Shown here piece after piece: positions 6,961-48,900 of a stretch of 64,000 nt of DNA; the first letter of the stretch is position 1; every line of letters starts with the position of its first letter. The DNA is taken from IMG/VR virus record IMGVR_UViG_3300008259_003217, positions 1 to 64,000 of that record; one strand, 5' to 3'. Source of the DNA: a virus. The position numbers and the translations under genes are program-made. Under the pieces are notes generated by a model, which saw only the letters and a list, made by a program, of their open reading frames with translations, did no database searches and was not told the origin of the DNA.

Positions 6961-7557
6961 TTAAATTCCAGTACTACCAAAACCTTTATCAGATCTATCT
7001 TTGTCTTCTACATTTTTAACCTTTTTTAATGTAATCCATTTACCACAAACAACCGGTGATAAGACACCCTGAGCTATTTTTTGACCCTTACTAATATCAA
7101 TCAATTCTTGTGTCGTGTTAAAGATAATCACTTTAATTTCACCAGTATATCCTTGGTCAACAGTTCCAGGTGAGTTTAACACCATTAACCCTTGATTAAG
7201 AGCTAATCCACTTTTTGATCTGATTTGTATTTCATACCCATCTGGAATGTCAATATGTAATCCGGTCGGTACTAATGTCCTACTGAATGGTTCTATACGT
7301 ACATTTTCGGTTGAGTGTAAATCAAACCCGGAGTCTGTTGGGTACACGTATTTTGGGTCAACTGATTCGTCCGAGGATACACTATAATGTAATAATAGCT
7401 TGTTATTTGATTTTGACATCTCTTCTTCAAGTTCCCTTATATCAAACCCATGTCTATCAATAACATCATTAACCACTAGGTTTTCAATCTCGTCACTAAA
7501 TAATTTTTGTAACTCGTCAATTTCTTTTTTTAGATCGTCTAAATTATTATTGTCCAT
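6961..7557 (-). CDS. dut: dUTP pyrophosphatase with N-terminal coiled-coil extension
   Basis: All five trimeric dUTPase motifs are readable: motif 1 DSGFDLHST (residues 75-83), motif 2 IRSKSGLAL (112-120), motif 3 GTVDQGYTGEIKVIIFN (131-147), motif 4 KGQKIAQGVL (157-166) and motif 5 DKGFGSTG (190-197). The enzyme hydrolyses dUTP to dUMP and pyrophosphate, keeping uracil out of phage DNA and feeding dTMP synthesis. Unusual is a 50-residue, highly charged N-terminal extension (DDLKKEIDELQKLFSDEIEN) predicted to be helical or coiled coil, absent from minimal dUTPases. It is co-oriented and directly adjacent to the exonuclease gene. Confidence 0.95.
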   Translation of the reverse strand: MDNNNLDDLKKEIDELQKLFSDEIENLVVNDVIDRHGFDIRELEEEMSKSNNKLLLHYSVSSDESVDPKYVYPTDSGFDLHSTENVRIEPFSRTLVPTGLHIDIPDGYEIQIRSKSGLALNQGLMVLNSPGTVDQGYTGEIKVIIFNTTQELIDISKGQKIAQGVLSPVVCGKWITLKKVKNVEDKDRSDKGFGSTGI

Positions 7558-8277
7558 TTATACTAATTCTTTTAATTTTTTAATGGTGTCAACCAATACT
7601 ACAACATCCCTTTCACAATATTCTGAAATTTCTTTTAACATGTTTCTTTCCCAGTAACATTCATGTACTTTATCACCTGTAACCTCACCACCTTTTGGTG
7701 TCGGGATGTCCAATGACGTACACATAAGATCTAATGATCCTATAGCTGTATAAGCTCCGTATTGCCAAATTTCACGAGTGTCTAGTGCTTTAACTTCCCA
7801 CGGTTTTGTATCAAATGAAGGTAATATTGATGGTGGATTTAAACCATTAATTATCATTCTTTTAGCCATCATCGGTATGTCAAAATTTTTAAGGTTGTGA
7901 CCACAAAGGTAGAAGTCTAACTTACCACACCTGTCTAACAATTTTTGGACATCGAGTAATAACTGTTTTTCGTCATCGTTTGAAAACGTTTGTTGTTTTA
8001 TTTCACCCTTATCGGTAACAAAAGCCATGGAGACACAAACAATCTTAGCAAATTCAGGTACCAAAGCTGTCCTGGTTGAAAACACAATATTTTTACGTTG
8101 AATTTCGTTTTCACCCTTCACCGAATCTTCTGGAAACCTTTTTAAAAACCAATCAAAATATTTATCAAATTGACTGGCTAATCTTGGGTTTGATTCTAAA
8201 CAAGAATCATAATCCCTGGTTATTCCAACAGTCTCTATGTCTAGGAATAAAATTTTTGTAATTGGTATAGTTATCAT
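7558..8277 (-). CDS. DEDDy-type 3'-5' exonuclease (PolB-exo-like)
   Basis: A free-standing exonuclease domain related to the proofreading domain of family B polymerases (DNA_pol_B_exo2 type). Exo I is ILFLDIETVG (DxE), Exo II is CGHNLKNFDIPMMAKR (N-x-x-x-FD), Exo III is YCERDVVVL (YxxxD, the DEDDy class). The family degrades DNA or RNA 3' ends in a two-metal reaction. In T4-like phages such genes complement the polymerase or process DNA during recombination. It directly abuts the dut start codon, so the two DNA-metabolism genes form a pair inside an otherwise sugar-related operon. Confidence 0.88.
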   Translation of the reverse strand: MITIPITKILFLDIETVGITRDYDSCLESNPRLASQFDKYFDWFLKRFPEDSVKGENEIQRKNIVFSTRTALVPEFAKIVCVSMAFVTDKGEIKQQTFSNDDEKQLLLDVQKLLDRCGKLDFYLCGHNLKNFDIPMMAKRMIINGLNPPSILPSFDTKPWEVKALDTREIWQYGAYTAIGSLDLMCTSLDIPTPKGGEVTGDKVHECYWERNMLKEISEYCERDVVVLVDTIKKLKELV

Positions 8278-9494: not shown

Positions 9495-9550
9495 AATATT
9501 TTTTGTTCTTGTAAAAGTATACCAAGAAAAAACGAAAATATCAATGGTTA

Positions 9551-9583
9551 AAAACAAAAAACCCCAACCATTCGGTTGAGGTT
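9551..9583 (-). terminator. rho-independent terminator of the 12363-9608 operon
   Basis: Read on the minus strand, a 10-bp stem (AACCTCAACC pairing with GGTTGGGGTT, one G-U pair) closes a 4-nt loop and is followed by a T-rich tract (TTTTGTTTT). It lies 25 nt beyond the stop of the last gene of the preceding operon and separates it from the glycosyltransferase operon. Confidence 0.85.
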
Positions 9584-9607
9584 ACAAATATACAATTTAT
9601 TTTTATA

Positions 9608-10180
9608 TTACTGCTGTATTTTTTTAATTCTTGTTAATTTACCTTCGAATATATGTTTCCCAACTCTAAATTTAAAGGTTTCATTACTTTTAGTTTCAGA
9701 TTCAGTTATTAAACCGTTTTCCCTAAGTACATCTTCAATTACCTCACGGATTACGGATTTTAAATCTGATGAAACACCAGGTGATGACTTTCTAACTTCT
9801 GACATTAATTCACCGTTAGCTTTGGTATTCATTAACCTGGAAGCTTTTTCAACCAACTCTTCCGTTAATACGGATTCAGTTGGTGTCCCCATACTTGGTT
9901 GTTGGATTGGGTGTTCAATCATTAATTGTTTAATCTCGTCAGGTAAATTGGATTTTAAAATTCTATCACTTGATGGGATTTCACTACTACGTGTTTGTGG
10001 TTTACTTTCCATCATCAATTCTTCCGGAATATTATATTTACCGTTGACCCCTTGAAAGTCCTCAACCTGTGGTGACGATAATCTACTTTCACTAACACTT
10101 CCTCGATTAATTGTGTTGTGTTTTTCCATTATTTTTTTGGAAATCATTAATTTTTGTAACAGTTCTTGTTCTGAATTCAT
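9608..10180 (-). CDS. hypothetical phage protein with conserved-looking C-terminal beta segment
   Basis: I do not recognise this 190-residue protein. The N-terminus (MNSEQELLQKLMISKKIME) is helical, the middle is polar and probably disordered (many Ser, Pro, Gln), residues 130-155 form an amphipathic helix (KSVIREVIEDVLRENG), and the end (FKFRVGKHIFEGKLTRIKK) looks like a short beta hairpin. Last gene of a five-gene minus-strand operon that opposes the virion genes; followed by the terminator at 9551-9583. A structural or assembly role is possible but not shown. Confidence 0.75.
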   Translation of the reverse strand: MNSEQELLQKLMISKKIMEKHNTINRGSVSESRLSSPQVEDFQGVNGKYNIPEELMMESKPQTRSSEIPSSDRILKSNLPDEIKQLMIEHPIQQPSMGTPTESVLTEELVEKASRLMNTKANGELMSEVRKSSPGVSSDLKSVIREVIEDVLRENGLITESETKSNETFKFRVGKHIFEGKLTRIKKIQQ

Positions 10181-12433: not shown

Positions 12434-14665
12434 ATGGCTCAACAGAATATTAATCAATATGTTTATCAGAAATATAAGATAAATCTTATATCTGACAGTA
12501 TGGATATGTCATTAACATCTGATGAACGTGATTACGATGAAGAAGTTTTATTTTCACCTTACTTAATAGCTGAAACATATGGAAATAAATTACCTATATA
12601 TTTTGACACAAATAATTTTTTAACAACAACACAACCAAATCTTATTTGGAAAAATTACAATTATAATAATGTATTTGTATCTCAAAACTTTTATAATCCA
12701 GATAACATAAATTTTTGTAACTATTCATCATCAACCTCATGTGATATTGGGTTGACTGGTATTGACAATGGTTTAGTTGATGTGATGACGGGAATTAGTT
12801 TAAATTACACGAATGGTTTATATGTTGATCCATTTAAATTTAATAGATTATTTTACGATCGAAGAATGAAAATGTTTCAGGTTACCGGACATACAAAACA
12901 ATATGATATTTTTTCGGGTAGACCACAAAACACATTGTATGAGATAGTAAGTAAAAACCACCCAAATTATGGATATTACCATGAATTGTATGGTGGATTT
13001 TATCAAGGGTTTTATAAACTTTTTGGTTATGACTATGACATATTACCAGAACGTATGAGTAAGGGTTGGTCGGTTGAGATGTTGTTAAGACCTAGATTCT
13101 GTGATGAGTATCCGGTATCATCTGGTGAGACAACCTTAAATATTTTATACCCAAACAATAAAAATACATTTTTTTATTTTGGTACCAGAGCTGAAAATAA
13201 ATTTTATCATTACGCTGACGGGTCCCCAAAATGTTTAACCGGGTATACTCGTGTAACAACACCACTAGCTGATTGTCTACAAACTTGTGCTTGTTGTTCG
13301 GTCGAAGCGGTATTTACAACAGGAATCACACCTGATTATGTTTTAGAAAATATTACAAACAGTAGATGTATATTTGTTTACCCCCCAAGATCTAAAGATG
13401 GAAAACATGATCCACATTTAAATTATGGATGTGATCTTTGTGGTGGGGATAAAGAAAAAAGATTAACTTGTGGTTGTAGTTGTGGTGAAGACCCATGTGA
13501 AACTTGTGGGTGGGAATGTAGAACACACAAATGTTTTACCACGAAATACCCAACACCCACACCAACACCCACACCTAGTCCAACCCCTAATTGTGAATAC
13601 CAAGTACCGGTTTGTACACCAAGTTGTACGACGTGTAAAACATGTACTGATTGTACAGATTGTTCAACAAATGAGGGGATTAAATCAATTGAGGATACGT
13701 GTGAAAAGGATCCATTGTGGGATTCGTTATCAAACGCTATGTCTATTAAATTTTCTGGTGATCCCAAAAATCCAAAAATTTGTGTTAGGGTTTTAAAATT
13801 AACGGGAACTTGTGAAACAACTGGAACTACTGTCACAGGTTTAACATTTACAACAGGATATACGGTTGTTAATTATTGTTCACCAAATGGGGTTTATGAT
13901 TATTGTGAAAAACGTAATATTGGATTTTTAGATATCGAGAAGTGGTTACAAGTTGATGTCGTGTGGAGTCGGTATACATTTTTAGATTTCTGTGATCTAA
14001 AATACTTTGGTGGTCTTGGGGATATTAGTGAGGTTAAATATTTGGATTCATTAGCTAATGATACTGTTAAATTAATTTCACCCCCAGTTACTAATGGTAT
14101 TAAAACACCACAAACTGTAGAACTTGTTAATTTAAATAAAAAGTGGTTAGATGATGTAAAATATCGAATGGGTAGATTAAAGATCTATGTGAACGGTAAA
14201 CGGTTCTTCACTATTGAGGACTTTGAGGAAGTAATTCCTAGAGCTTTACATACCGATAAAGAAAAACAAGTTGGTGTTCCTTTTAATATCTCTTGGGGTG
14301 GGGGTACACAAGGATTACATGAGAACTTAACATTCTCTTCCTGTACCGGATTAACATCAAATTATATTCAGGATCCAGAATGTTTTCCAAATAATATATT
14401 AAGTGGTACAACATTTTCAAAATTAAAAACTAACATTTTACTAGAACAAAATTTTGGTGGTTACTTTGAGGGTGGGATAACTCAATTTAGAATGTATGTT
14501 GAACCATTAAACTCGTCGGAAGTTAAACATAATTTTAATTTATTAAAAAATAAATTTGAAATGTTTGATCCAGACTGTCCAAATTGTGATACAAAATATT
14601 GTGAAACTAATGATTTAACATATACCATAAACGATTACACAACAACAACCACAACAATTATATAA
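12434..14665 (+). CDS. virion surface protein with Cys-rich region and PT linker
   Basis: 743 residues from the ATG at 12434 (MAQQNINQ); an ATG at 12413 would overlap the TATTTAT motif. Residues 1-260 are aromatic- and Asn-rich beta structure. A Cys-rich stretch follows (CACCSVEA, CDLCGG, CGCSCGEDPCETCGWEC), then a TPTPTPTPSPTP linker, then a second Cys cluster (CTPSCTTCKTCTDCTDC). The C-terminal part (about 430-720) has LQVDVVWSRYT, MGRLKIYVNGKRFFTIEDF and FNISWGGGTQG, which look like a LamG/concanavalin-type jelly roll (a lysyl-isotype YVNGK strand). Probably a tail fibre or surface adhesin. First gene of the large plus-strand fibre region. Confidence 0.7.
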   Translation: MAQQNINQYVYQKYKINLISDSMDMSLTSDERDYDEEVLFSPYLIAETYGNKLPIYFDTNNFLTTTQPNLIWKNYNYNNVFVSQNFYNPDNINFCNYSSSTSCDIGLTGIDNGLVDVMTGISLNYTNGLYVDPFKFNRLFYDRRMKMFQVTGHTKQYDIFSGRPQNTLYEIVSKNHPNYGYYHELYGGFYQGFYKLFGYDYDILPERMSKGWSVEMLLRPRFCDEYPVSSGETTLNILYPNNKNTFFYFGTRAENKFYHYADGSPKCLTGYTRVTTPLADCLQTCACCSVEAVFTTGITPDYVLENITNSRCIFVYPPRSKDGKHDPHLNYGCDLCGGDKEKRLTCGCSCGEDPCETCGWECRTHKCFTTKYPTPTPTPTPSPTPNCEYQVPVCTPSCTTCKTCTDCTDCSTNEGIKSIEDTCEKDPLWDSLSNAMSIKFSGDPKNPKICVRVLKLTGTCETTGTTVTGLTFTTGYTVVNYCSPNGVYDYCEKRNIGFLDIEKWLQVDVVWSRYTFLDFCDLKYFGGLGDISEVKYLDSLANDTVKLISPPVTNGIKTPQTVELVNLNKKWLDDVKYRMGRLKIYVNGKRFFTIEDFEEVIPRALHTDKEKQVGVPFNISWGGGTQGLHENLTFSSCTGLTSNYIQDPECFPNNILSGTTFSKLKTNILLEQNFGGYFEGGITQFRMYVEPLNSSEVKHNFNLLKNKFEMFDPDCPNCDTKYCETNDLTYTINDYTTTTTTII

Positions 14666-14749: not shown

Positions 14750-16390
14750 ATGGCAATTATAATTCAAGGTATAGGACCTGGGTCAACACTAAGAGATTCG
14801 AACACTAACCTATCGAACGGAAGCTGTAGTACCGTAGCTGGTGGTCAATTAAATACGTCACAATTAACTGAAACTATCGTCGGTGGTGGTTGTAAAAATA
14901 CCGCTGGACCAGTATGGTCAACTATCGGTGGTGGAGCGTGTAACCGAATATCAACAACAAAAGCTTCTGGGTCAGCACCTTGTAGTACAATTGTTGGTGG
15001 TTGGAGAAACGTAATTAATGTGAACAGTGAGAGATCAACTATTGGTGGTGGAGCGTGTAACAATATCAGTGGTATTGAAGGTTTCATTGGTGGTGGTATC
15101 TGTAACAATATTATTACTGGTGTTGACAACACTATTGCTGGTGGTTCAAGTAACTCTATACGAGAATCAAATGTGACAATAGGTGGTGGTCAACTTAATA
15201 GGGCTTTTGCCATTAACTCTGTAATCCTTGGGGGTAACTGTAACCTAACACAATCAATAAGTAGTGTTATTGGTGGTGGTGATAATAACACAATACTACC
15301 AAGTGTTGATGGAAAAGGAAATATAAACGTTATTGGTGGTGGTGCAAGAAACACCATTGACCCGTTTGGTATATTTAGTTACTCAACAATTCTAGGTGGT
15401 CAGTGTAATTTCACTAGTGGTGCTAACACAGTAATTGGTGGTGGAACAAATAACACGGCTTTACAAATAAACTCAATCGTTGGTGGTGGTTCTTTTAACT
15501 TAGCTAATGCTGCTTCACCAGCAATTGGTGGTGGGGTTCGTAATACAACACTTGGTCAAATATCTTCGATTGGTGGTGGTAGTGGGAACACAATAACAAC
15601 GACAGCTTGTTCATCAACAATCGGTGGTGGATTTGGTAATACAATAACTGGACAAAGATCAGCAATCTTAGGTAGTTCATCAAATAAAATTACAGGTAAT
15701 GATTCATTCATAATCGCTACAAGTTCAAGTGTTAGTGCTAACCGAAGTGTAGCTTTGGGTGGATCTAACGTTAACGTAACTGTTGATGATTCGGTTTACG
15801 TACCAAAACTTAACATTAGAAGTTTTCCAAACACTTCACCAATATACGGATTAGCGGTTGACGCTAACGGATTTGTTGTACCATCAACTAATCCAGGTGT
15901 TAACTTTGTGGTTGACGCTTTCTTATCGGAAGGTTCACCAGATCCAGTAAATAGTGTGTCTTCTGGTTTAGGTAATGATTTATCAAACTCATTGGTTGCG
16001 GTAACACAAACACCGACATTACAATATAATGATTACATCGGGTCATATGATAACGCTACTGGTATTTGGACATGTCCACAAAGTGGTAGATGGAACATGA
16101 GTTTTTATGTTCATTTAACTGGTCCAGACGCGGTTAATGGGTGGTATTCATTAGCTGAGGGTATGATTTACGCTGGTATTGTTGATGTTGTTACTGGTGA
16201 GGTTTACGCTTCAAGTACATTCTACACGTCAAACATTCAAAAATACGCTGATATTAACGGTGGACAATGGGGTGTGTTACTAAACGCTGGTGACCAATTA
16301 TGTGTTAGAGTACTTAATACAACAGGATTAAACTACACAACTGTAGCACCTGATGATTATGTTAGGTTCTCAACACAAAGAGTTGGATAA
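14750..16390 (+). CDS. IGGGxxN-repeat fibre protein with C1q-like head
   Basis: 546 residues. Residues 20-340 consist of about twenty repeats of the form S-x-I-x-GGG-x-x-N-x-I (for example STIGGGACNNIS, FIGGGICNNI, TVIGGGTNNTA), spaced about 13-18 residues, which would stack as a beta-roll or beta-helix shaft. Cys often precedes the Asn. After a connector (residues 340-385, VYVPKLNIRSFPN), the last 150 residues read like a C1q/TNF jelly roll (NDYIGSYDNATGIWTCPQSG, RWNMSFYVHLTG, LLNAGDQLCVRVLN). Shaft plus C1q-like head is a classic receptor-binding architecture. It is followed by the protease-like gene and a paralogous repeat protein. Confidence 0.85.
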   Translation: MAIIIQGIGPGSTLRDSNTNLSNGSCSTVAGGQLNTSQLTETIVGGGCKNTAGPVWSTIGGGACNRISTTKASGSAPCSTIVGGWRNVINVNSERSTIGGGACNNISGIEGFIGGGICNNIITGVDNTIAGGSSNSIRESNVTIGGGQLNRAFAINSVILGGNCNLTQSISSVIGGGDNNTILPSVDGKGNINVIGGGARNTIDPFGIFSYSTILGGQCNFTSGANTVIGGGTNNTALQINSIVGGGSFNLANAASPAIGGGVRNTTLGQISSIGGGSGNTITTTACSSTIGGGFGNTITGQRSAILGSSSNKITGNDSFIIATSSSVSANRSVALGGSNVNVTVDDSVYVPKLNIRSFPNTSPIYGLAVDANGFVVPSTNPGVNFVVDAFLSEGSPDPVNSVSSGLGNDLSNSLVAVTQTPTLQYNDYIGSYDNATGIWTCPQSGRWNMSFYVHLTGPDAVNGWYSLAEGMIYAGIVDVVTGEVYASSTFYTSNIQKYADINGGQWGVLLNAGDQLCVRVLNTTGLNYTTVAPDDYVRFSTQRVG

Positions 16391-16416: not shown

Positions 16417-17862
16417 ATGGTCACAGACTCAATTAAGGAAAAATTAAAGTCTATATATAAATCAAACATTGATAAAGTTGGTGTTGGGTTCGGATTGAAA
16501 ATTAAAGATGGTCAATTAACAAATGAAAAATCATTTACGTTAATTGTTAAAGAAAAGAAACCTTTGAGTTCTTTATCTAGTGGTGAAGTATTCCCAAAAG
16601 AAATGACAGTTGATGGAGTTACTTACCCCACAGATGTTGTAGCTTTTTCAGAGGCGGAACCATACGCATTTTATTGTGCCGGACCAAACCCGGACCTAAG
16701 TCCAACTTGTTGGAACTGGACGATTACCCCACCAGCAAATAGGAACTATTTAAGGCCGTTACAAGGTGGTATTTCTTTAGGTCCTTCAAATATAGCTGGT
16801 TCTGGAACATTAGGTTTGATAGCTGTGGATGGAGAAACAGGTTGTTATGTTGGTTTAACTAATAACCACGTTGTAATAAACGACCCATTCTATACTGGTG
16901 ATAGACAATTAAATGGTGGTATTTCAAACGTAACTTACCCAAGTGGCGTGGGTTCCGCGATAAACGCTTATCAACCTGGGTTATCGGATCCATTTGTTGG
17001 TACCAACTTTGACAGGTCATTTGGGATTGTACTTAGGTATGTTCCTGTATTTAGTAATGTTTTTCCTGTTGATGGTATAAATATTTCAGATGCTGCAATT
17101 GTCAGTATCGATCAATTTGACGCACAAGGAAATCAAACTATAAGTACTTCAGGTCCGAACGCTTCTTGGAGACAGTTGGGTTTATCCTCAATAACAGCTC
17201 CTCAACCATTCGCTACCAACTTGGAAATAAATTCATTAACTCCAGCTGATTCGATTATAAGTGCTGGTAGAACTTCCGGAGGTAAAGAAGGTGTTTGTTC
17301 GCTACGAATACATCTACTGAGTGTGATTTACGAATACACCCAATCAATGCAGGGGTTACAAACCCCGATTATATATCAAGATTTGATGAGTTTTGCTAGA
17401 TATTCACCAACTGGTGAGTTATGTGCTTTTCCAGGTTTTAAAGGTGATTCTGGTTCAGCTATGTTCGCTCAATTTGGTGGTACTTGGAAAGTAATTGGTT
17501 TAATACAGGCTGGTAGTCCAAATAAACAACCACTATTAAATCCAAATACAACTTGGTATGTTAATAACACGATAAACCCAATCAATTATCCACCATTTGT
17601 TGGACCTATAGTTGGTTTTGGTCCAGCTTTAATTGGTAACGCTTCTTGGCCATATATGTTTGGTTGTAAAATAACTAACATAGCTTCACAATTAAATATT
17701 CAAGCTTGGGACGGGACACCTAAGTGTCATATAGATCCGAACCCACATACTGTAACAGCTTGTGGTAAAAGTTTTAACCCAACTGTAGTTTGTAGTGGTG
17801 ATACGTACTGGCAAGTAGGATTAACTAATGATCCTTCATTATTAAATCCATGTACCCCATAA
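16417..17862 (+). CDS. trypsin-like (S1-fold) serine protease
   Basis: 481 residues with a chymotrypsin-fold catalytic triad: His151 in VGLTNNHVVIND, a candidate Asp225 in NISDAAIVSID, and Ser345 in FPGFKGDSGSAMF (the GDSG oxyanion motif). The N-terminal 80 residues (DKVGVGFGLKIKDGQ, SFTLIVKEKKP, TYPTDVVAFSEA) match the prodomain-like leader of a group of bacterial trypsin-like proteins. There is no signal peptide, so if it acts outside the cell it is presumably carried on the virion. It lies between two IGGG-repeat fibre genes with gaps of 26 and 23 bases, suggesting co-expression; it may process the fibres, release them from receptors, or cut host surface proteins. Catalysis itself is inferred from motifs. 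Confidence 0.8.
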   Translation: MVTDSIKEKLKSIYKSNIDKVGVGFGLKIKDGQLTNEKSFTLIVKEKKPLSSLSSGEVFPKEMTVDGVTYPTDVVAFSEAEPYAFYCAGPNPDLSPTCWNWTITPPANRNYLRPLQGGISLGPSNIAGSGTLGLIAVDGETGCYVGLTNNHVVINDPFYTGDRQLNGGISNVTYPSGVGSAINAYQPGLSDPFVGTNFDRSFGIVLRYVPVFSNVFPVDGINISDAAIVSIDQFDAQGNQTISTSGPNASWRQLGLSSITAPQPFATNLEINSLTPADSIISAGRTSGGKEGVCSLRIHLLSVIYEYTQSMQGLQTPIIYQDLMSFARYSPTGELCAFPGFKGDSGSAMFAQFGGTWKVIGLIQAGSPNKQPLLNPNTTWYVNNTINPINYPPFVGPIVGFGPALIGNASWPYMFGCKITNIASQLNIQAWDGTPKCHIDPNPHTVTACGKSFNPTVVCSGDTYWQVGLTNDPSLLNPCTP

Positions 17863-17885: not shown

Positions 17886-19994
17886 ATGACAGAAATAATT
17901 ATAACAGATGTGAATGGTGGGAGCACCACAACAGTGAGAGACAGATTAGGTAATATTAGTCTTGGTTCTTACTCAACAATATCTGGAGGTGGTAAAAATA
18001 CATCAAACGGTGTTAGATCAACCGTATTGGGTGGTTATGGCAATACATTGGTTGGTAATGACTCGGTAGCTGGTGGTTATGATAATTTTTCACAGTCCGA
18101 CTTTACAGTAATTTCTGGTGGTAAATCAAATAGAATATCTGAAAATAGTTCTAGTTACTCGGTTATAATTGGTGGATCTAATAATATTATAACTGGTTCG
18201 ACTAGTGTGATAAACAATGGGTTGAATAATAACCTATTTGGTAACTACTCGACAATCTCTAACGGTTTAACAAATACAGTAAATTCGAACTATTCAACGG
18301 TAACAAATGGTATCGGTAATATAGTTACTGGTGATCATAGTTTAGTAGGTGGTGGGTCGTCAAATGTTATCTCAAAATCATCGTCAGTAATACTGAATGG
18401 ACAGGGTAACACCGTAAACTCACAAAACGGATCAATTTTAAATGGTGTGTCGAATACTGTTAACGGATCACTTTCGTCAATCGGGAATGGATTTAGAAAT
18501 CAAATTTCCGGAGAACAATCAGTTATTAATAATGGTATTTGTAATATAATCACATCAAGTAATTCATCAATAAACACCGGTATAAATAACTCAATATCTT
18601 CTGATCTATCAGTTATTGGTGGTGGGTATTTAAATGAAATTAAATCCGAATCATCATTCATTGGTGGTGGATCATTAAATATGATTGAGGGTGGGTCTTC
18701 GGTAATCGCTGGTGGTATGGACAATAAAACTGTTTTAGAATATTCATCCGTACTTGGTGGTAGATTTAATACAGTCGAAGGTGTTGGATCAACAGTTGGT
18801 GGTGGAATATACAACACTGTTTTAGGTTCCACGTCATCGTCTGTTGGATACGGTAACTTTGTATCTGGAGATACTTCACATGTTTTGTCAAATAATTCCT
18901 ACCTAGTTGGTAATAATTCTGTGATTCTTGGTGGTAGTAACATTAGTGGTTTTTCGGATAATACAGTATATGTTGATCAATTAAATTTATTTAACAATAG
19001 TGACCCAACATCTGTAACATATACAACTATACCAGTACCATTATCGGGTATTGACCCTATTGGGGTTGATGGTGATGGGTTTGTTAGGGTTTTTGAATTC
19101 CCAAAAACAACTTACATTACTAGTGGGTCATATGATAACACCACTGGTACTTTAAATTTAAGATATGATAACAATCAAGATATAATTGTCACTGGTTTCA
19201 CTGACGCTGATTGTTGTATAACAGGTGGGACATATTCTGGTAGAACCGGGGATATAATTTTAAATCCCGACGGACCAACACCAATCCCAATAACTGGAAT
19301 TACCAAAGTTGGTGGTGAAAGTGTGGTATTTGGTGACTACTCATCCGTTGGTGCAGGTAAAGATAATACAATATATTCCAATAACTCATTTATCGGTGGG
19401 GGTAGATTTAATTCAACTTCTGGGGACACATCAACAATTTTGGGTGGATCGAGGAATAGTGTAGTTGGAGCTGGGTCATCTGTTTTTGGTGGTGCAAGTA
19501 ACGACATAACTGGTGAAACATCTCATGTACTTGGTGGGCTAGGGAATACAATCGTTGGGGATGGATCAAATACTGTCGGGGGTAGTGGTAATCTAGTGTT
19601 AACTAATGATGTAGTATTAATTAACACAAGTAGTTTGACCGCAACAACCCCAAACACTGTGTACCTTGGTGAAACACAATTTACTGGACCAGTAAATTAT
19701 AAAACAACAATGGTTGACGCGTTAGCGGATCCGAATTTAACGGATAACGATAGTATTGTATTTTATAACACTTCAGGACCTGGTGGTACCATTTATCTAC
19801 CAACAGCTAGAGATGGTAAAGAGGTTATTCTAATTAGAACTAATAACACTAACAGTGCTTTTGTTGTTGGTAGTGGAGGAGCTAAAATAAATGGGGTTGG
19901 TATAGCTCAAAACTTACCAACAGCTGTATATACTAAAACAACATTTATTAGTAATGGTACTGACTGGTACGCTAACGACTCAGCACCATTCTAA
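17886..19994 (+). CDS. IGGGxxN-repeat fibre protein (second paralogue)
   Basis: 702 residues. Residues 25-340 and about 475-590 are repeats such as STISGGGKNTS, SVIGGGYLNEI, SFIGGGSLNMI and STILGGSRNSV, here mostly with Ser/Asn in place of the Cys of its paralogue. The two repeat blocks are separated by a non-repeat insert with TYITSGSYDNTTGTLNLRYD and ITGGTYSGRTGDIIL, elements also found in the fibre proteins at 23653 and 33957. The C-terminus (GGTIYLPTARDGKEVILIR) is a short beta domain seen at the ends of tail-fibre proteins. The very high Ser/Thr/Asn content makes it a plausible acceptor for the glycosyltransferases immediately downstream. Confidence 0.82.
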   Translation: MTEIIITDVNGGSTTTVRDRLGNISLGSYSTISGGGKNTSNGVRSTVLGGYGNTLVGNDSVAGGYDNFSQSDFTVISGGKSNRISENSSSYSVIIGGSNNIITGSTSVINNGLNNNLFGNYSTISNGLTNTVNSNYSTVTNGIGNIVTGDHSLVGGGSSNVISKSSSVILNGQGNTVNSQNGSILNGVSNTVNGSLSSIGNGFRNQISGEQSVINNGICNIITSSNSSINTGINNSISSDLSVIGGGYLNEIKSESSFIGGGSLNMIEGGSSVIAGGMDNKTVLEYSSVLGGRFNTVEGVGSTVGGGIYNTVLGSTSSSVGYGNFVSGDTSHVLSNNSYLVGNNSVILGGSNISGFSDNTVYVDQLNLFNNSDPTSVTYTTIPVPLSGIDPIGVDGDGFVRVFEFPKTTYITSGSYDNTTGTLNLRYDNNQDIIVTGFTDADCCITGGTYSGRTGDIILNPDGPTPIPITGITKVGGESVVFGDYSSVGAGKDNTIYSNNSFIGGGRFNSTSGDTSTILGGSRNSVVGAGSSVFGGASNDITGETSHVLGGLGNTIVGDGSNTVGGSGNLVLTNDVVLINTSSLTATTPNTVYLGETQFTGPVNYKTTMVDALADPNLTDNDSIVFYNTSGPGGTIYLPTARDGKEVILIRTNNTNSAFVVGSGGAKINGVGIAQNLPTAVYTKTTFISNGTDWYANDSAPF

Positions 19995-22687: not shown

Positions 22688-23644
22688 ATGAGTCAAAGTA
22701 TAACCATAGATAGTATAAATTTTGACGGTGAATTAGCTACCGTTATTTTTAAACCGGATAATGATAATGTTGTCATTAATCTAGGTCAAGTTACGTTACC
22801 GTTTATTTTTTTCCCGGACTTATTAGTACCACCAAGGGAAGTGTACGGTGTCTATACGATACTAGTTGAGAATGGGGATTGTCCGAATATATTAAATGTT
22901 CCAAGACCTACCCCCACACCAACACCAACTGTGACTCCGACAAGGACACAAACACCTACACCAACACCAACTGTAACACCAACACCAACATTTGATCCTT
23001 GTAAGGTACCAACCCCAACACCAACGAACACACCAACGAATACCGTTACCCCAACTGTAACACCAACACCAACTGAAACTTGTACAAGTCCTTGTGGATG
23101 TCCACATCCAAGTAATACACCAACCCCAACAAAAACACCAACACCCACACCAACATATCAAATATGTAAATCAACACCTACACCTACACCAACAGTTACT
23201 CCAACAAACACAGTTACTCCAACAAATACTATGACACCTACCCCTACCAATACTACCACACCAACGAATACACCAACACCAACACCTAGTAGTTCACCGG
23301 AACCAGACTTACCAGGAATTTATTTTGGTAAATTTAGTGGTTCGTCAATAACTAGTGGGGACTCTTCACTTCTTACTTTCGAGTATACAAATGACCCAAC
23401 AGATGATTATGTTACATTTACGAGTAGTGTTACACCATACTGGGGATACATTTTAATACCGATATCGTTACCACAACCAACAGGATTTAGAAATAGTACG
23501 ATTGGTTGTAATGGATTTAACATACCAACAAACAATATAGGTACAATAATTATAGTAGATGGAAATGGATTCCAGATAAATTACAATGTCTACAGAACCT
23601 TTAATGACTTCTTGGGTACTGTTGATTGTTGGTTATGTAGTTAA
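22688..23644 (+). CDS. mucin-like Thr/Pro-repeat virion protein
   Basis: 318 residues. Residues 1-70 are a compact beta domain ([20 protein letters not shown]). Residues 72-205 are almost pure [12 protein letters not shown]-type sequence interrupted by short Cys-containing islands ([27 protein letters not shown]). Residues 210-318 form a second domain ([33 protein letters not shown]). Thr-Pro alternation gives an extended stiff linker and is the classical acceptor context for mucin-type O-glycosylation. It lies directly after the glycosyltransferase block, 49 bases from the GT9-like gene. Confidence 0.8.
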
Positions 23645-25561: not shown

Positions 25562-26020
25562 ATGAGTTATCATTTTTTCCCAAATATAGTTACGGATGGT
25601 TTGGTGTTTCATATAGACGCACAAAATTCTAAATCGTACAATAATATAGGTACCGAAGCTTATTCACTTGTAAAACGTGAAAATGGGTCAAACTTTAGAA
25701 GATTAACAATTCAAAGTGGGGTGACAATTCAGTCAATGAATGATATTAGTTATTTTTTTTTAAATGGAGTAAACTATCTATCGTCGACTGGTTTCGGAAC
25801 CCCAATGGTTAACATACCCCCAAACATAACTTACGCTAGTTGGTTTAGTCATGATAGAAGTTTATCTCAAGGTAGTGTGTTATTTTTACCTGGTACCGGA
25901 GCGTCAATTAATAGAACTTGGTTATACCCATTTGGTAATAGTATTAATTTTGCACTAACAGATATTTTCCAAATGAATTTAATTATGTGGTGGCTACATG
26001 TCAATTGGAGCCTAGTTTAA
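25562..26020 (+). CDS. LamG-like virion protein, N-terminal part (frame broken)
   Basis: 152 residues, opening with IVTDGLVFHIDAQNSKSYN, a very typical start of concanavalin/LamG-like phage surface proteins (GLV-x-x-DA-x-N). The natural fold should continue with a YINGNL strand, but this frame runs into MWWLHVNWSLV and stops at 26020. The missing half is encoded in the overlapping ORF 25987-26259. Joining them requires a one-base shift near 25966-25971 (GATATTTTCCAAATG), after which the text becomes NEFNYVVATCQ. An indel in a short T run, a true mutation or recoding are all possible. Confidence 0.7.
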   Translation: MSYHFFPNIVTDGLVFHIDAQNSKSYNNIGTEAYSLVKRENGSNFRRLTIQSGVTIQSMNDISYFFLNGVNYLSSTGFGTPMVNIPPNITYASWFSHDRSLSQGSVLFLPGTGASINRTWLYPFGNSINFALTDIFQMNLIMWWLHVNWSLV

Positions 26021-26259
26021 CAGCCAGTACTTTATCGATATATATCAATGGTAATTTAGTAAGACAACTAACAAATCAAGGTAGAGTTTCAGGTAGACCA
26101 TCTGGACCAAATGAACCAGATATTGGTAGGGGTTCTAGTGCTGGTAGTACTAGATTTAACGGAAAAATAGCTACAGCTTCAATATATAATAAATGTTTAA
26201 GTTTAGACGAAATAAGACAAAACTATAATACTTTAAAAGGTAGATTTAATCATAATTAA
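25987..26259 (+). CDS. LamG-like virion protein, C-terminal part
   Basis: 90 residues in a different frame from the preceding ORF; its only start in that stretch is a GTG at 25987. STLSIYINGNLVRQL, then FNGKIATASIYNKCLSLDEI and RQNYNTLKGRF are the hallmark C-terminal strands and helix of LamG/concanavalin-like domains. The reading frame remains coding-like upstream of the GTG (PNEFNYVVATC), which supports that it is the tail of the gene at 25562 and not an independent gene. Confidence 0.7.
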   Translation: MVATCQLEPSLTASTLSIYINGNLVRQLTNQGRVSGRPSGPNEPDIGRGSSAGSTRFNGKIATASIYNKCLSLDEIRQNYNTLKGRFNHN

Positions 26260-28270: not shown

Positions 28271-29518
28271 ATGAAGATATTCATTCAAATCGCTTCATAT
28301 AGGGATCCACAATTAGTCCCGACAATAGAAGACGCTATTAGTAAATCAAAACATCCTAAAAATTTAGTATTTGGTATCGCTCGTCAATACCACCCAGAAG
28401 ATAAATTTGATGATCTTTCATCTTATGAAGAAGATAAAAGATTTAGAGTTCTAAATATTCCACACGAGGAATCTAAAGGTGTTTGTTGGGCTCGTAATCA
28501 AGTACAACAACTGTACGGTGGTGAGGAATATACACTACAGATTGATTCACACATGAGATTTGATCAAGACTGGGATCAAACATTAATAGATATGTTATCT
28601 GATCTACAGGATAAGGGATATAAAAAACCCCTATTAACCGGATATGTATCATCTTTCGATCCAGAAAACGATCCAGATGGTCGGGTTGTTGACCCTTGGA
28701 GGATGGTTTTTGATCGGTTCACCCCAGAGGGTTGTGTTTTCTTTTTACCGGAGACAATTCCTGGGTGGAAAGATTTAACCGAACCGATAACATCTAGATT
28801 TTACTCAGCTCATTTTTGTTTTACTCTTGGTCAATTTAGTGTTGAGGTACAACACGACCCGGAATATTACTTTCATGGTGAGGAAATTTCTATAGCTGTT
28901 AGAGCTTATACACACGGTTATGATTTGTTTCATCCCCATAAAACTGTTATTTGGCACGAATACACCAGAAAAGGTAGAACAAAACAATGGGACGATGATA
29001 AAGTTTGGTACTTAAAAAATGAATCTTCACACAAAAAAAACAGGGAGGTATTAGGTGTGGATGGTGAAGTATATAACGGTGACCTTGGTAAATATGGTTT
29101 TGGTACCGAAAGAACAATTAAGGATTATGAAAAATATTCCGGTGTTTTATTCTCTAAAAGAGCTGTACAAAAATACACCATAGATAAGAAATACCCACCA
29201 AATCCATACGACTTTGAAACCGAAGAGGATTGGGTTGAGAGTTTTTCATCAATTTTTAAACACTGTATTGATGTATCCTTTTTACAGGTACCGGAAAACG
29301 ATTACGAATATTGGGTGGTTGCTTTTCACGATAAAACAGATGAAACAATCTATAGACAAGACGCTAGTACAGATGAGATAAAAATGATGATGACTGATCC
29401 AGACGGATATTGTAAAATATGGAGACAATTTAACACTAAAGAAAAACCGGCTTATTGGGTTGTTTGGCCATACTCAAAATCAAAAGGTTGGTGTGATCGT
29501 ATAACAGGAAATTTATAA
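28271..29518 (+). CDS. GT60-like polypeptide N-acetylglucosaminyltransferase homologue
   Basis: 415 residues. MKIFIQIASYRDPQLVPTIE, then HPKNLVFGIARQYHP, GVCWARNQVQQLYGGEEYTL and QIDSHMRFDQDWDQTLIDML reproduce in order the motifs of the GlcNAc domain family (Skp1 hydroxyproline GlcNAc-transferase, GT60), including the DSH metal site. Downstream SAHFCFTLGQF, YYFHGEEISIAVRAYTHGYD (GEE-x-x-x-A-R) and VIWHEY complete the GT-A core. The characterised eukaryotic member modifies hydroxyproline in Skp1, and the family is related to mucin-type GalNAc-transferases. The C-terminal 120 residues are an extra domain (YWVVAFHDKTDETI). Given the Thr/Pro-repeat virion proteins on both sides, peptide glycosylation is a reasonable hypothesis, not shown here. 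Confidence 0.88.
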   Translation: MKIFIQIASYRDPQLVPTIEDAISKSKHPKNLVFGIARQYHPEDKFDDLSSYEEDKRFRVLNIPHEESKGVCWARNQVQQLYGGEEYTLQIDSHMRFDQDWDQTLIDMLSDLQDKGYKKPLLTGYVSSFDPENDPDGRVVDPWRMVFDRFTPEGCVFFLPETIPGWKDLTEPITSRFYSAHFCFTLGQFSVEVQHDPEYYFHGEEISIAVRAYTHGYDLFHPHKTVIWHEYTRKGRTKQWDDDKVWYLKNESSHKKNREVLGVDGEVYNGDLGKYGFGTERTIKDYEKYSGVLFSKRAVQKYTIDKKYPPNPYDFETEEDWVESFSSIFKHCIDVSFLQVPENDYEYWVVAFHDKTDETIYRQDASTDEIKMMMTDPDGYCKIWRQFNTKEKPAYWVVWPYSKSKGWCDRITGNL

Positions 29519-33956: not shown

Positions 33957-36683
33957 ATGGCAGATAAAAGAATATCACAGTTACCTTACGTTGGGAACAC
34001 AGGCTACACAACTAATGACATAATAGCTATAGTAAACTATGATGTATTTAGTGGTACGACAAAACATACACCATTAAGTCAGTTTTTACCTTATGTTTTA
34101 AGTGGGGTTACTTCTGGCGGGGATATTGTAAGTGGGACATATTTCCCATCTTCAGGATTACTACAATTAAATAACTCAACCGGTGGTACGATAACTATAC
34201 CTGGATACCAATACGTTGTCGGTGGGTCATATAATGACATTACCGAAGAATTAACATTAACAAATAATGATGGTAGTAATTTTCTCATAACTGGATTTAC
34301 TGACACATATTTCACTGGACTAACATTCCAAACTCCAGCGATGGATTTGACAATAACTAGAAATGATGGGTTTAGTGATACTGTAAGTCTGTTGCCTTTA
34401 CTTGGTGATACTTTTGTGACAGGAGGTACTTACGATTTAAATACTGGCGATGTTGAATTTACAAACAGTACTGGTGGTACATTTACTGTAACCGGATTTG
34501 TGACTGGGTATACAGATCACTATGTAACTGGTGGAACTTATGACATAACAACTGGTACATTAGATTTAAATACACAAACAACTACGGCATCAATAGCTGG
34601 GATAGACATTTTACATGAGGTTGGTACTGGTATTAATTCCACACAAAGAATAAATGTAAATTCTAATTCTTTTGGTGATTGTTCTTCAGTACTTGGTGGT
34701 GAGGGTAATACCTCTTATACTATATATAGTAACGTGACTGGTGGGTATTATAACACATCTGTAGGTTGTTCCACAACAATCGGTGGTGGGTATTGTAATA
34801 CCGCTTCAGTTTGTTTTTCGGTAATTGGTGGTGGAATATCAAACACATCAAACGGTAGATGTTCAGTCATAGCTGGCGGTGGTTCTAATACTGCGATTGG
34901 TACTTTGTCAACAATCGGTGGTGGTGATAATAACACAATCGAGACCGGTGGTAATATTGGTGGTGGTAGTGGAAACATTATTACATCAAATGGTATTGGT
35001 TCGGTTATTACCGGTGGAATTTTTAATGTATCTGAGGGAACGGTTAGTTCCATAAACGGAGGTAATTCAAATGTGGTTTGGGTATCGTCTGGAGGGGCTG
35101 TTATTGGTGGTGGAAATGACAACACCATCTTATCCACTAATGGTACAATTGCTGGTGGGTGTTTAAACACAATTTGGGGGACTAGTGATTGTTCAGTAAT
35201 TGGTGGTGGATGTCAAAATAAAATAATGTGTCCTACTTCAAAGAGTGTAATATCTGGTGGTATTTTAAATTACAGTGAAGGTGTATTAAATACGATAGGT
35301 GGTGGAGAATGTAATACATCGTACTCTTTTTGTTCAGTAATTAATGGTGGTTGTAAAAACACAATATGGTCAACAGGTACAAAATCTTTGATTGGTGGTG
35401 GTATTTGTAATACATCATGTGGTGGTAGTTCTGTCATTTCCGGAGGGGAAAAGAACTTAACCAAATTAAACTCTTGTTGTTCATTTATTGGTGGTGGTTG
35501 TAATAACATAACAGATAATTGTTATTCATCAATTGTTGGTGGGTATTGTAATCAATCTTGCGGTCAATATTCATTTGTTGGTAATGGTTTAGGTAATCAA
35601 TCATTAGGTGGTTGTAGTGTTATTGTTGGTGGTCAAAGTAATCAAAACATTGGTAACCATTCTTCAGTTTTAGGTGGATTACTTAATAACCTTAGAGGAT
35701 CCAGATCTGTTATTGGTGGTGGATCAACAAATACAGTAATGTCCACGGATAGTGTTATTGGTGGTGGGGTATCAAACTGTTTGAATGGTGATCATGGATT
35801 TATAGGTGGGGGTAGTGGGAACACGGTAGCATCATCCTCGTGTTTTTCAAACATTAATAGTGGGGCTAAAAATACGGTATTTACAGGAACAACGGGGTCA
35901 TCAATTAATGGTGGTATACATAATACAATTAGTTGTTCATCGATATATGGTATAATTAATGGTGGTGTTTGTAATACAATTTTGTCAAATTCTAGTATAA
36001 TTGTCGGTGGTGCATTAAATTACATTTTTAGTGGTGGATGTGTTAATATGATCGGTAATGGTCAACTTAATTTTATATCTGGGGGGACTTGTTATAGTAC
36101 AATAATTAACGGAATACAAAATAGAATATCCTCAAATTCCACTTATAGTTCAATAATTGGTGGTAGATGTAATACAGTACAATCAGAATATAGTACAGCT
36201 TATGGTTGTGGTGCTTTAACATCCAGATATGGTCAACAAAGTTTATCGATAGGTACGTTTTCAAATCCGGGAGATAATCAAAAGGTAGAGTTTTTACTTT
36301 CAAATAAAACTAATACAGCAACACCAACTAAATTATTTTTAGATTACCCAACAAGTACAGTAGGGTTAACAGTACCTAGTGGTAAAGCTTTATTTTTAAC
36401 GGTATCAATTTCAGCTGTTCAAGAAAACGCAACATTCCCATGTGGTGTTGGTTGTTCAGCTCATTATATTAGAAAAGTTGCTGTTAAAAATGTTGGTGGG
36501 AACACCACACTTATTGGGGCGGTTTCAACAGTGGGTACCGACGTTGAAAATAATACTGCTTGGAATGTTTCTATTTCCGCAAATAACACTTTAGATCAAT
36601 TAGAAATTTTAGTGACTGGGGTTGCTAGTGATAATATTAGATGGACAGCTCATGTGACTGGGGTTGAAATGTCTTGGATTTAA
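33957..36683 (+). CDS. large IGGGxxN-repeat fibre protein (third paralogue, Cys-rich repeats)
   Basis: 908 residues. Residues 1-45 (ADKRISQLPYVGNTGYTTND, KHTPLSQFLPYVL) are the shared attachment module. Residues 50-215 carry GGTYDLNTGDVEFTNSTGG and VTGYTDHYVTGGTYDITTG modules. Residues 230-760 hold about thirty repeats such as TIGGGYCNTASVC, SVIGGGCQNK, SFIGGGCNNITDNC and SVIVGGQSNQNIG, in which Cys occurs at fixed places before Asn and before Ser, suggesting a ladder of stacked cysteines. The last 140 residues (FLTVSISAVQENATFPCGVG, IRWTAHVTGVEMSWI) are a beta-sandwich head. Longest of the three repeat proteins and last gene of the fibre region. Confidence 0.85.
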   Translation: MADKRISQLPYVGNTGYTTNDIIAIVNYDVFSGTTKHTPLSQFLPYVLSGVTSGGDIVSGTYFPSSGLLQLNNSTGGTITIPGYQYVVGGSYNDITEELTLTNNDGSNFLITGFTDTYFTGLTFQTPAMDLTITRNDGFSDTVSLLPLLGDTFVTGGTYDLNTGDVEFTNSTGGTFTVTGFVTGYTDHYVTGGTYDITTGTLDLNTQTTTASIAGIDILHEVGTGINSTQRINVNSNSFGDCSSVLGGEGNTSYTIYSNVTGGYYNTSVGCSTTIGGGYCNTASVCFSVIGGGISNTSNGRCSVIAGGGSNTAIGTLSTIGGGDNNTIETGGNIGGGSGNIITSNGIGSVITGGIFNVSEGTVSSINGGNSNVVWVSSGGAVIGGGNDNTILSTNGTIAGGCLNTIWGTSDCSVIGGGCQNKIMCPTSKSVISGGILNYSEGVLNTIGGGECNTSYSFCSVINGGCKNTIWSTGTKSLIGGGICNTSCGGSSVISGGEKNLTKLNSCCSFIGGGCNNITDNCYSSIVGGYCNQSCGQYSFVGNGLGNQSLGGCSVIVGGQSNQNIGNHSSVLGGLLNNLRGSRSVIGGGSTNTVMSTDSVIGGGVSNCLNGDHGFIGGGSGNTVASSSCFSNINSGAKNTVFTGTTGSSINGGIHNTISCSSIYGIINGGVCNTILSNSSIIVGGALNYIFSGGCVNMIGNGQLNFISGGTCYSTIINGIQNRISSNSTYSSIIGGRCNTVQSEYSTAYGCGALTSRYGQQSLSIGTFSNPGDNQKVEFLLSNKTNTATPTKLFLDYPTSTVGLTVPSGKALFLTVSISAVQENATFPCGVGCSAHYIRKVAVKNVGGNTTLIGAVSTVGTDVENNTAWNVSISANNTLDQLEILVTGVASDNIRWTAHVTGVEMSWI

Positions 36684-45989: not shown

Positions 45990-48900
45990 ATGGCTACTAA
46001 CAGTAAAGTATTTGTACCAATATTCGTTAGAAATTACGATGAGTTCCAGACTTACTTTGGGGGTACAACACCTGAAAAATTTATAAACACACAAATCCCT
46101 AAATATGAAGCGGCTTATATAGCTAAAGCTTATTTACAACAATCAAATCAATTGTTTGTAACTAGAGTATTGGGTTTATCTGGTTATGACGCTGGACCAT
46201 CTTGGTCAATCATGACTAAAGCTAATGTTGATCCTAACACAATTGGTAGATATTGTACCGATCCAGTTATCGTGGATTGTTTACCAGCTTGTAATGAGTA
46301 TGAAAAAATTGGATATACATTCAATTTTACAGCTTGTACAAATTCAACTGGTCAATCAACATTTGATGTGTCTGGAATTGATCCTTTAATTTTAGAAAAA
46401 TTAAATCTACAGTTTGAACAATTCAACGGGTCCACCTCATCAATAAACGATTATTTAAATGATTTAATATATGACGTTATAGGATCTGTCGATCAGTCAT
46501 TAGCTGAAGCTACAACAATTAGTTACTTCGGATCAATTGATACTGAGGATTATAATATACTATCACCTGTGTTTACAGCTGAAACAAATGTATATGGTGT
46601 TCCTGATGTATCACTAAATGATACTGATTTGGAATCAGCGTTTAACGACCCTTGGTATTATTCACAATTTGATAATACAGGTAATGGTGAGTATTCAGGA
46701 TTCTCATTCTTTTCATATATTACTGGATTAACAAATGTTACACCTGTGACAACAACAACTACACAACCTGTACCACCACCCCCACCACCACCAGACCCTT
46801 GTGTTACACCTATTCCGACCCCAGTTCCAACAGCTACACCAGTTCCACTAATTGTTGAGTGTTACACTGGTTCGTTGATTGGTGTAATTTACACATATAC
46901 CGGTACTTCATATACTGAGTATGATGATTTAGTTATCGCTACTTTAAGATCTAGAGGTTTATCAAATTATACATCTAGTGAAAACCCAGGTTATGAAGTT
47001 TCAAACATTAATAACGTAACTTTAAATGTATCTGGGATTTATTCTGGAGCTACCAAAAATCCATATTTACCATTTGCTGTCAATGTAACAAATGATAATG
47101 GAACTAACTTTACATTTGAAACATCTTTCAGTATATCTGACTCAAACTACGTAACTAAAGTATTTGGTACCGACAACTTTGGTAAACCTAAAGGTGTTGT
47201 TCCTGTATTTTTAGAGGAGAGGTTCCAATCTTTATTGAACTTTGGTTTTAGAAAAGGATACATTAGGGGTATTAATTCTGAATTAGTAGCTTTAGATTCA
47301 GCTCAAAGTGAAACTTCGGATTCAATAGGGTGGTATTTAGATAGATATCAATCAGCTAACTCACCTTGGGTTGTTTCCGAATTGAGGGGTACTAAAGTGT
47401 ATAATCTATTTAAATTCTACACAGTATCTGATGGTGACGCAGCGAATACACAAGTAAAAATATCAATTATTAATATATCATTTAATAATTTAACATTTGA
47501 TGTTTTAGTTAGGGATTACTATGATACGGATTCAAACCCCGTGGTTTTAGAAAAGTTCACAAACTGTTCAATGAATCCAAATGAAAATAGTTTTGTAGCT
47601 AAAAAAATTGGTACACTTGACGGTGAGTACGAATTAAATTCAAAATACATAATGATTGAGATTAATGAGGACGCACCTAATGATTCACTACCTTGTGGTT
47701 TTGATGGGTATAATTTCCGTCAGTACGATGGTGTTAGATCTCCATTCCCTATCATCAAAACAAAATATTTCTTCCCTGGTGAAGTTTTCTTTAACCCACC
47801 ATTTGGATTTGCTAATGGTAATGATGACGCTACCACAGAACCTGGTGATAATATTCGAAGAACATATCTAGGTATCTCAAATAGTTTTGGGTATGACAGT
47901 AGTTACTACGAATATAAAGGTAAACGAAATCCTAGTTCTTCTTGTGACATTGATGGTGTTGAGTGGTCCTATTTAAGTAAAGGATTCCACATGGATAAAA
48001 ACGCTAGTGGAATTACAATCTCAAACGGATTCTCAACAAGTGGAACACCTAGATTCTATGTTGGTGACGCTTCGTTTAGTAGTGAACCAACAGATACCGC
48101 AAACCCATATTATAGACTGTACGCTCGTAAATTTACTTTATTAGTACAAGGTGGTTTTGATGGTTGGGATATCTATAGAGAATATAGAACAAATAAGGAT
48201 GAGTTTGTTTTAGGTAAATCCGGATTCTTGAATGGAGCTTGTCCTAGTGATAGGTACCCTAACGCATCTGGATGGGGAGCGTTTAAACAAATCTCTGTTG
48301 GTGATGGTACAACTGAATTCGCTAACACAGATTATTACGCTTACCTATTAGGTATTAAAACATTCTCCAATCCAGAATCTGTTAACATTAATGTATTTGT
48401 TACCCCTGGTATTGATTATGTAAATAATAGTAATTTGGTTGAGTCAGCGATAGATATGATCGAGAACGACAGAGCGGACTCTTTGTATATCACAACAACA
48501 CCAGATTATAATTTATATTTACCAACAACCACCGGAACGGATGGATTAATATACCCACAGGAAGCGGTTGATAATCTTGAGTTAATCGGACTTGATTCGA
48601 ATTACACAGCTACTTATTACCCTTGGGTATTAACAAGAGATACGGTAAACAATACACAAATTTACATACCACCTACAGCTGAGGTTACAAGAAACTTAGC
48701 TTTAACTGACAACATAGCGTTCCCATGGTTCGCAGCGGCAGGTTACACGAGAGGTATTGTTAACTCAATTAAAGCTCGTAAAAAATTAACACAAGAAGAT
48801 AGAGACGTGTTATATACGGGTAGAATTAACCCAATCGCTACCTTCGCTGATGTTGGTACAGTTATATGGGGTAATAAAACTTTACAGGTACGTGAATCAG

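Follow-up and report, generated by a model that had tools for sequence, protein, structure and literature searches.

A predicted NAL1-like serine protease between two fibre genes of a virus, and a tail motif on the gene just upstream in its relatives

Tailspike and fibre depolymerases of phages place an enzyme within an exchangeable host-recognition cassette and cut polysaccharide. Most of the enzymes described so far on phage fibres, to our knowledge, cut sugars. The protein analysed here has its best PDB match, by both sequence profile and fold, in rice NARROW LEAF 1 (NAL1), with which it shares, as do short-type bacterial and phage relatives, a putative N-terminal domain, a predicted chymotrypsin-like domain, the His-Asp-Ser order and the GDSG box. 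PMC10317195 describes NAL1 as a trypsin-like serine protease and reports that it promotes the breakdown of the FZP protein. On the viral side, the protease family as such is already known: the proteins match PHROG 20754, an entry that, as shown, is annotated just as 'protease', and an unannotated structural relative exists in Virus NIOZ-UU157 (A0A7S9XDX3, uncharacterized; TM 0.78/0.84, 31% identity over 511 alignment columns). The words 'trypsin' and 'chymotrypsin' are absent from the main text of a review of 224 jumbo phages (PMC7824862). Among the literature matches listed, no title or abstract opening reported a NAL1-like protease in phages, and none described the fibre cassette, the extensions or the tail set out below, most subscription papers being outside the reach of this search.

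The protease gene, its family and its predicted fold

The window, that is, the whole stretch of 64,000 nucleotides analysed, corresponds to positions 1-64000 of a 159,868-base IMG/VR virus record and has a G+C content of 33%. A Shine-Dalgarno core was found upstream of just 2 of its 45 complete open reading frames (ORFs) of at least 150 aa; such scarcity would presumably suit a host of the Bacteroidota type, which we take as a candidate and not as an established host. The virus is predicted to have a contractile tail, because a tail sheath gene is present. The main features are as follows, where L048 is a sister virus and fractions of 57 refer to the alignment of distinct phage proteins described below.

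12434-14665, + strand: gene two places upstream of the protease; 90% identical to its L048 counterpart, ends TTTTTTII
14750-16390, + strand: IGGG-repeat fibre 1, 546 aa; 49% identical to its L048 counterpart, with a possible C1q-like stretch at the C-terminus
16417-17862, + strand: predicted NAL1-like serine protease, 481 aa, from triad conservation and the AlphaFold2 (AF2) fold
16417-16650, + strand: N-terminal domain, about residues 1-78 (the boundary is our own), putative counterpart of the NAL1 N-terminal domain, from PF25608 in relatives and the family profile against rice NAL1
16753-17715, + strand: chymotrypsin-like protease domain, residues 113-433, the range aligned to S1 proteases
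16867-16869, + strand: His151 codon, invariant in 57/57
17089-17091, + strand: Asp225 codon, invariant in 57/57
17443-17457, + strand: GDSGS box, with the Ser345 codon at 17449-17451; G343, D344, S345 and G346 invariant in 57/57
17806-17820, + strand: YWQVG element close to the C-terminus; Q466 in 57/57 and W465 in 55/57, with long extensions starting after it in 16/57
17886-19994, + strand: IGGG-repeat fibre 2, 702 aa; LbR_Ice_bind match, 53% identical to its L048 counterpart
33957-36683, + strand: third IGGG-repeat protein; 37% identical over 373 columns and 41% over 269 columns to the two L048 fibres, respectively
45990-49217, + strand: tail sheath; phrog_23 at 1.9e-48, tblastn matches to gp18-type sheaths

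The tail sheath protein is 1075 aa long, and the PHROG sheath profile spans residues 784-1072 only, so that a long N-terminal part lies outside the profile. Downstream of the fibre region, a glycosyltransferase is encoded at 28271-29515 (phrog_24687, 4.6e-162). The near-identical contigs L046 and L047 have a single intact ORF of 247 aa where the window, at 25562-26259, has two overlapping ORFs of 152 and 90 aa; from about base 25964 onward the window differs in sequence from these contigs and is shorter by 46 bases, and the gene is thereby split.

An earlier note, made from the sequence alone, had described a protease with a complete His-Asp-Ser triad, situated between two repeat-fibre genes and lacking a signal peptide. 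The present analysis bears this description out. The ORF lies between the repeat genes 14750-16390 and 17886-19994, all on one strand, with gaps of 26 and 23 nt, and on inspection by eye a hydrophobic leader is not apparent at its N-terminus. H151 (in TNNHVV), D225 (in ISDAAI) and S345 (in KGDSGSA) are all invariant in the 57 distinct phage proteins, an alignment that takes in the window protein and its near-copy in L046. The order His-Asp-Ser with GDSG around the Ser is likewise present in all 57. The window protein contains 4 His, 22 Asp and 43 Ser residues, among which the sole invariant His is H151 and the sole invariant Ser is S345, and three Asp are invariant (D225, D73 and D344). With only 24 of the 481 columns invariant, and pairwise identities that have a median of 0.42 and a minimum of 0.25, conservation of the triad appears to be more than chance would give.

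By itself, the window protein matched nothing in Pfam or NCBIfam at E 1, its best PDB match was no lower than E 0.24, and a search of viral contigs returned copies of the same virus only. PHROG 20754 was matched by the window protein at 7.3e-13 (residues 6-162) and by all 57 aligned proteins (best 1.1e-23). Two further proteins, one from a jumbo phage and one from a Rhizobium plasmid, have all the triad residues when aligned with the window protein. A first profile scan of viral contigs yielded 37 loci, including the long-type relatives L011-L016, and in a second scan a relative was encoded in 209 of the 249 matched stretches. The best 80 of these 209 stretches (L046-L125) were retained and, together with the window and L011-L016, made up a first set of 87 loci, which encode the 57 distinct proteins as judged on the first 380 residues. 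Neighbour counts use 56 loci, L046 (99.8% identical to the window) being left out.

The earlier note regarded such proteases as uncommon in fibre clusters. The 209 stretches from viral contigs call for a correction of this view, while queries with the window, L011 and L075 proteins found no long-type protein in 50,697 GenBank phage records; the window query found there one distant short-type protein (LR756508.1). Two peptide-pattern scans of bacterial and archaeal genomes gave 16 and 10 pattern matches, none of them confirmed, a result that holds for proteins with the scanned patterns and not for bacteria at large. On a Rhizobium plasmid there is a short-type relative, and there (L005:3318-6867) it adjoins a radical SAM protein and a HEXXH putative peptide-modification protein amid conjugation genes. 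In a quick tree with long branches, 56 long-type and 25 short-type proteins were split by one branch (SH-aLRT 100).

Structure prediction, which had been named as a check for the chymotrypsin-like fold, agreed with it. The AF2 model, built on the 57-row alignment, has a pLDDT of 81 and a pTM of 0.86, with weak stretches at residues 83-93, 176-179 and 371-408. VIA-align superposed the model on S. griseus protease B over residues 115-431 (184 residues aligned at 2.2 A, Z 17.9) and on rice NAL1 over residues 1-437 (331 residues aligned at 3.5 A, 17% identity, Z 28.8). Foldseek placed rice NAL1 at the top (5.3e-16, TM 0.52/0.63) and bacterial S1 proteases next. The family sequence profile also had rice NAL1 chains as its top PDB matches (2.5e-7), covering the N-terminal part and the His box. 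The NAL1 N-terminal domain, PF25608, was matched at E 0.05 or better by 14 of the 57 aligned proteins (best 6.1e-7); the window protein is not among them, nor was PF25608 found in the window's own record. By its predicted fold, the window protein is a NAL1-like serine protease of the S1 (chymotrypsin-fold) type.

Fibre neighbours, extensions and divergence of the cassette

Both neighbours of the window protease are rich in IGGG-type repeats. Fibre 2 matched the LbR_Ice_bind beta-roll at 7.5e-6 with 26.4 bits, below the curated cut-off of 30. For the C-terminal stretch of fibre 1, C1q was matched at E 0.075 and phmmer against the PDB gave 0.058, and a fold prediction from two sequences reached a pLDDT of 36; the possible C1q-like end is a weak lead. 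Scans with either fibre returned same-virus copies and one near-identical stretch, nothing more. Among the Pfam, PHROG and NCBIfam matches of the two fibres and of the protease that sits between them, there was neither an S74 domain nor a prohead protease family.

The window protease is not joined to a fibre or adhesin chain, having 13 residues after YWQVG. Among its relatives, however, extensions of 182 to 857 residues past YWQxG, with Pro/Thr- or Thr/Ser-rich linkers, occur in 16 of the 57 proteins, and the extended and plain states require at least five changes on the quick tree. The extension of L011 contains DUF285- (1.1e-31), cohesin- and PKD-like modules, the latter two below their cut-offs, and that of one other member contains DUF4982; Pfam at E 0.01 found nothing in the remaining 14. 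Three of the 16 extensions resemble neighbouring non-protease ORFs: that of L011 matches ORFs of L122 and L055, that of L105 one ORF of L101, and that of L111 one ORF in its own locus and in three other loci.

Linker- or repeat-rich genes occupy the position directly upstream (-1) in 48 of the 56 loci and the position directly downstream (+1) in 15 of the 56, compared with 32 of 348 at a distance of three to six genes. When six upstream proteins were scanned, the tail-bearing protein of L104 matched a virion structural family (1.3e-96), two matched a family of unknown function, and Pfam found DUF285 in one (L055). One cluster lies immediately downstream of the protease in 7 loci, and its single scanned member, from L120, matches tail and tail-fibre families. 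Another neighbour cluster (c0) was not used, because the clustering had over-merged low-complexity proteins. In L016, small genes that are mutually homologous by clustering (7495-7971 and 9495-9974; 158 and 159 aa) flank the protease, an arrangement similar to that of the two IGGG fibres in the window; the product of the first small gene ends QLYVRYYS, near the tail motif described below.

The sister virus L048 keeps the order fibre-protease-fibre. Between it and the window, identity is 80-94% in ten genes upstream and three downstream, against 49, 42 and 53% for the fibre, the protease and the second fibre. The proportion pN is 0.33-0.37 in this cassette versus 0.04-0.11 in 12 flanking genes; pS is near saturation in both (0.56-0.66 and 0.46-0.66, respectively). 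The gene at 22688-23644 also differs from its L048 counterpart (88% identity over the first 138 residues, 65% overall), and the cassette is therefore not the sole variable spot. Among the 135 pairs of loci that have four or more further genes in common and a neighbour median of 55% or higher, pairs that share sequences with one another, the protease was below the median neighbour identity in 127; it was not in the other eight, e.g. L063/L069 (92% versus 85%).

Protease alleles have evidently been exchanged, because L014 and L113 share neighbours with differing proteases, and L107 and L113 share a protease over diverged downstream genes. In the former pair, six downstream neighbours are 93, 96, 98, 74, 98 and 96% identical and the proteases 53%. 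In the latter, pS is 0.26 in the protease versus 0.47-0.65 in five downstream genes. Taken with the neighbourhood and the C-terminal extensions, the co-divergence of protease and fibres supports a probable link of the protease to fibres.

A tail motif on the gene just upstream

The protein encoded directly upstream of the protease usually ends in xT[IVL][FYW]xx[FYIL], mostly after a linker; examples are NTIYVHVP, NTLFVHIPN, YTIWVHIE, NTVFMGFDIL and NTIYTHFESL. This tail on the upstream gene is the new element of the system. It was searched for in a slightly looser form, with a regular expression that was written after viewing the first set and left unchanged for a test set. The latter comprised 43 loci in which the protease does not exceed 90% identity to its best match in the first set; the upstream gene is complete in 39 of them. 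In the first set, the tail was present at -1 in 50 of 56 loci versus 6 of 825 other ORFs, two of these six lying upstream of the tandem proteases in L090 and L103. In the test set, the figures were 31 of 39 at -1 versus 0 of 335 elsewhere. The ORFs counted elsewhere include the proteases themselves, and since test-set members are related to each other and to the first set, the counts do not represent independent events. The tail is rare in other linker- or repeat-rich genes of the same loci (2/70 in the first set, 0/57 in the test set), internal 16-mers of the same proteins match it in 97 of 11,200 cases, and loci of short-type relatives have it in 4 of 584 ORFs. Compared outside their low-complexity parts, the 95 upstream ORFs make up 23 homology groups, a few of these being ORF-calling errors, and the tail occurs in 17 of the groups.

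Six loci of the first set lack the tail at -1 (the window, L048, L011, L013, L016 and L090). The L013 case is an ORF-calling error, the in-frame upstream protein ending NTLFVHIPNI, and in L090 a second protease lies in between and the -2 gene bears the tail. The eight misses of the test set are L145, L152, L156, L210, L216, L241, L256 and L269, of which L241 ends NSVYVHIP. More than one protease-like gene is present in each of L090, L103 and L077; in L090 and L103 a tail-bearing gene lies upstream of the protease array, and L103 has a second such gene directly before the last protease. In L055 and L057 the upstream protein carries two tandem copies of the tail. A DNA scan with one exact form of the tail found three contigs, all known protease loci by name (L089, L092 and L093), and adds little.

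We considered a DNA-level constraint as the cause of the tail. The codons vary at their third positions, with Phe as TTT or TTC and Tyr as TAC or TAT, Trp is used in 13 of 81 tails, and the distance from the motif to the protease start ranges from 29 to 54 nt, with one outlier at -8. Since synonymous positions and distance vary in this way, it is the peptide, not the DNA, that seems to be conserved.

The tail is absent from the upstream fibre of the window and from the upstream gene of L048. The body of the -2 gene of the window (12434-14665) is 57-58% identical to an L069 protein that bears a linker and the tail directly upstream of the protease, and the linker-and-tail end is missing from the window gene. 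Because a fibre gene intervenes and the tail is gone while the -2 gene resembles the tail protein of L069, the window lineage, as judged from these two lineages, looks derived.

The motif frames a direct question, namely whether the peptide binds the protease or gets cut by it. According to the main rival to the reading we favour, the enzyme is a fibre-maturation protease that cuts neighbouring fibres in assembly, and the upstream tail is a recognition or cleavage site, not a docking tag. This would account for a tail that stands on the gene directly upstream and almost nowhere else, for the two tandem tails in L055 and L057, and for the co-divergence of protease and flanking fibres, as might be seen in an enzyme and its substrate; proteases are also stated in PMC7824862 to serve phage virion maturation. 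However, the long extensions on the protease itself in 16 of 57 proteins would be needless for a maturase, the upstream proteins vary among loci (the 23 homology groups noted above), and the window and L048 retain the protease without any tail. Furthermore, one protease allele is common to L107 and L113, whose downstream genes have diverged, although the upstream gene of L113 is cut by the contig end. We regard fibre maturation as unlikely, though it deserves serious attention.

Proposed role and comparison with known systems

An intracellular protease, acting in the cytoplasm on host regulators or defence and lying in the fibre region by chance, is improbable. It would fit the lack of a signal peptide visible by eye, and two papers offer precedents: phage peptidases of patchy distribution are proposed to target host proteins (PMC7824862), and plant NAL1 is reported to promote FZP degradation (PMC10317195). 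However, the neighbourhood is far from random (48/56 versus 32/348), and the L011 extension contains adhesin-type modules. Moreover, virion proteins require no signal peptide. An inactive adhesin that retains the protease fold as a binding domain only would suit a protein sitting among binding proteins, but it is very improbable, given three catalytic residues and a GDSG invariant in 57/57 at a median pairwise identity of 42%.

We slightly favour the reading that the gene encodes an active NAL1-like protease that the adhesion fibres carry, or that is released along with them, and that acts on host surface proteins; activity, presence in the virion and substrate are all inferred. The product would be a catalytically competent component of the host-recognition cassette, borne on or released with the fibres, and would cut proteins of the host cell surface. 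Because related phages often keep the protease beside or fused to fibre-like proteins, it would probably trim host surface proteins in attachment. In our view, among the three roles proposed in the earlier note (fibre maturation, detachment from a decoy receptor, and degradation of host surface proteins), the last fits best. In relatives, the protease may be tethered by two routes: covalently, through a C-terminal extension with a Pro/Thr or Thr/Ser linker, or by docking on the C-terminal tail of the upstream protein. The window lineage has no tail partner, and its protease is flanked by an IGGG fibre on either side.

A more specific picture, which we offer tentatively and hold to be less probable, is that of a two-part surface weapon. 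The short, beta-strand-like tag xT[IVL][FYW]xx[FYIL], at the end of a fibre or another virion protein whose linker is long and flexible, would capture the protease encoded by the next gene. Exchangeable proteases, displayed at the tips of these tethers, would cut host surface proteins and so determine host range. The window lineage would then be a derived one that has lost the tag and is served by its two IGGG fibres. If the tail is a tag, it would constitute a small portable peptide-enzyme pair.

Compared with rice NAL1 and the short-type relatives, identity is 15-18%, and TM is about 0.5 (query) and 0.54-0.70 (target). The YWQxG C-terminal element, the extensions in some members and the phage fibre context set the window family apart from them. 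Phage prohead proteases and S74 self-cleaving fibre chaperones are phage proteases that act on virion proteins, whereas the predicted fold of the window protein is chymotrypsin-like instead. By inference only, the window protein works like a receptor-degrading enzyme, with a chain that is without the extension seen in some relatives. If this is true, a large protease family resides in exchangeable recognition cassettes, and many uncultured phages also attack surface proteins. The protease would be the protein counterpart of the polysaccharide depolymerase; unlike tailspike and fibre depolymerases, it would cut protein and is encoded as a separate gene, so that the likeness is one of functional analogy.
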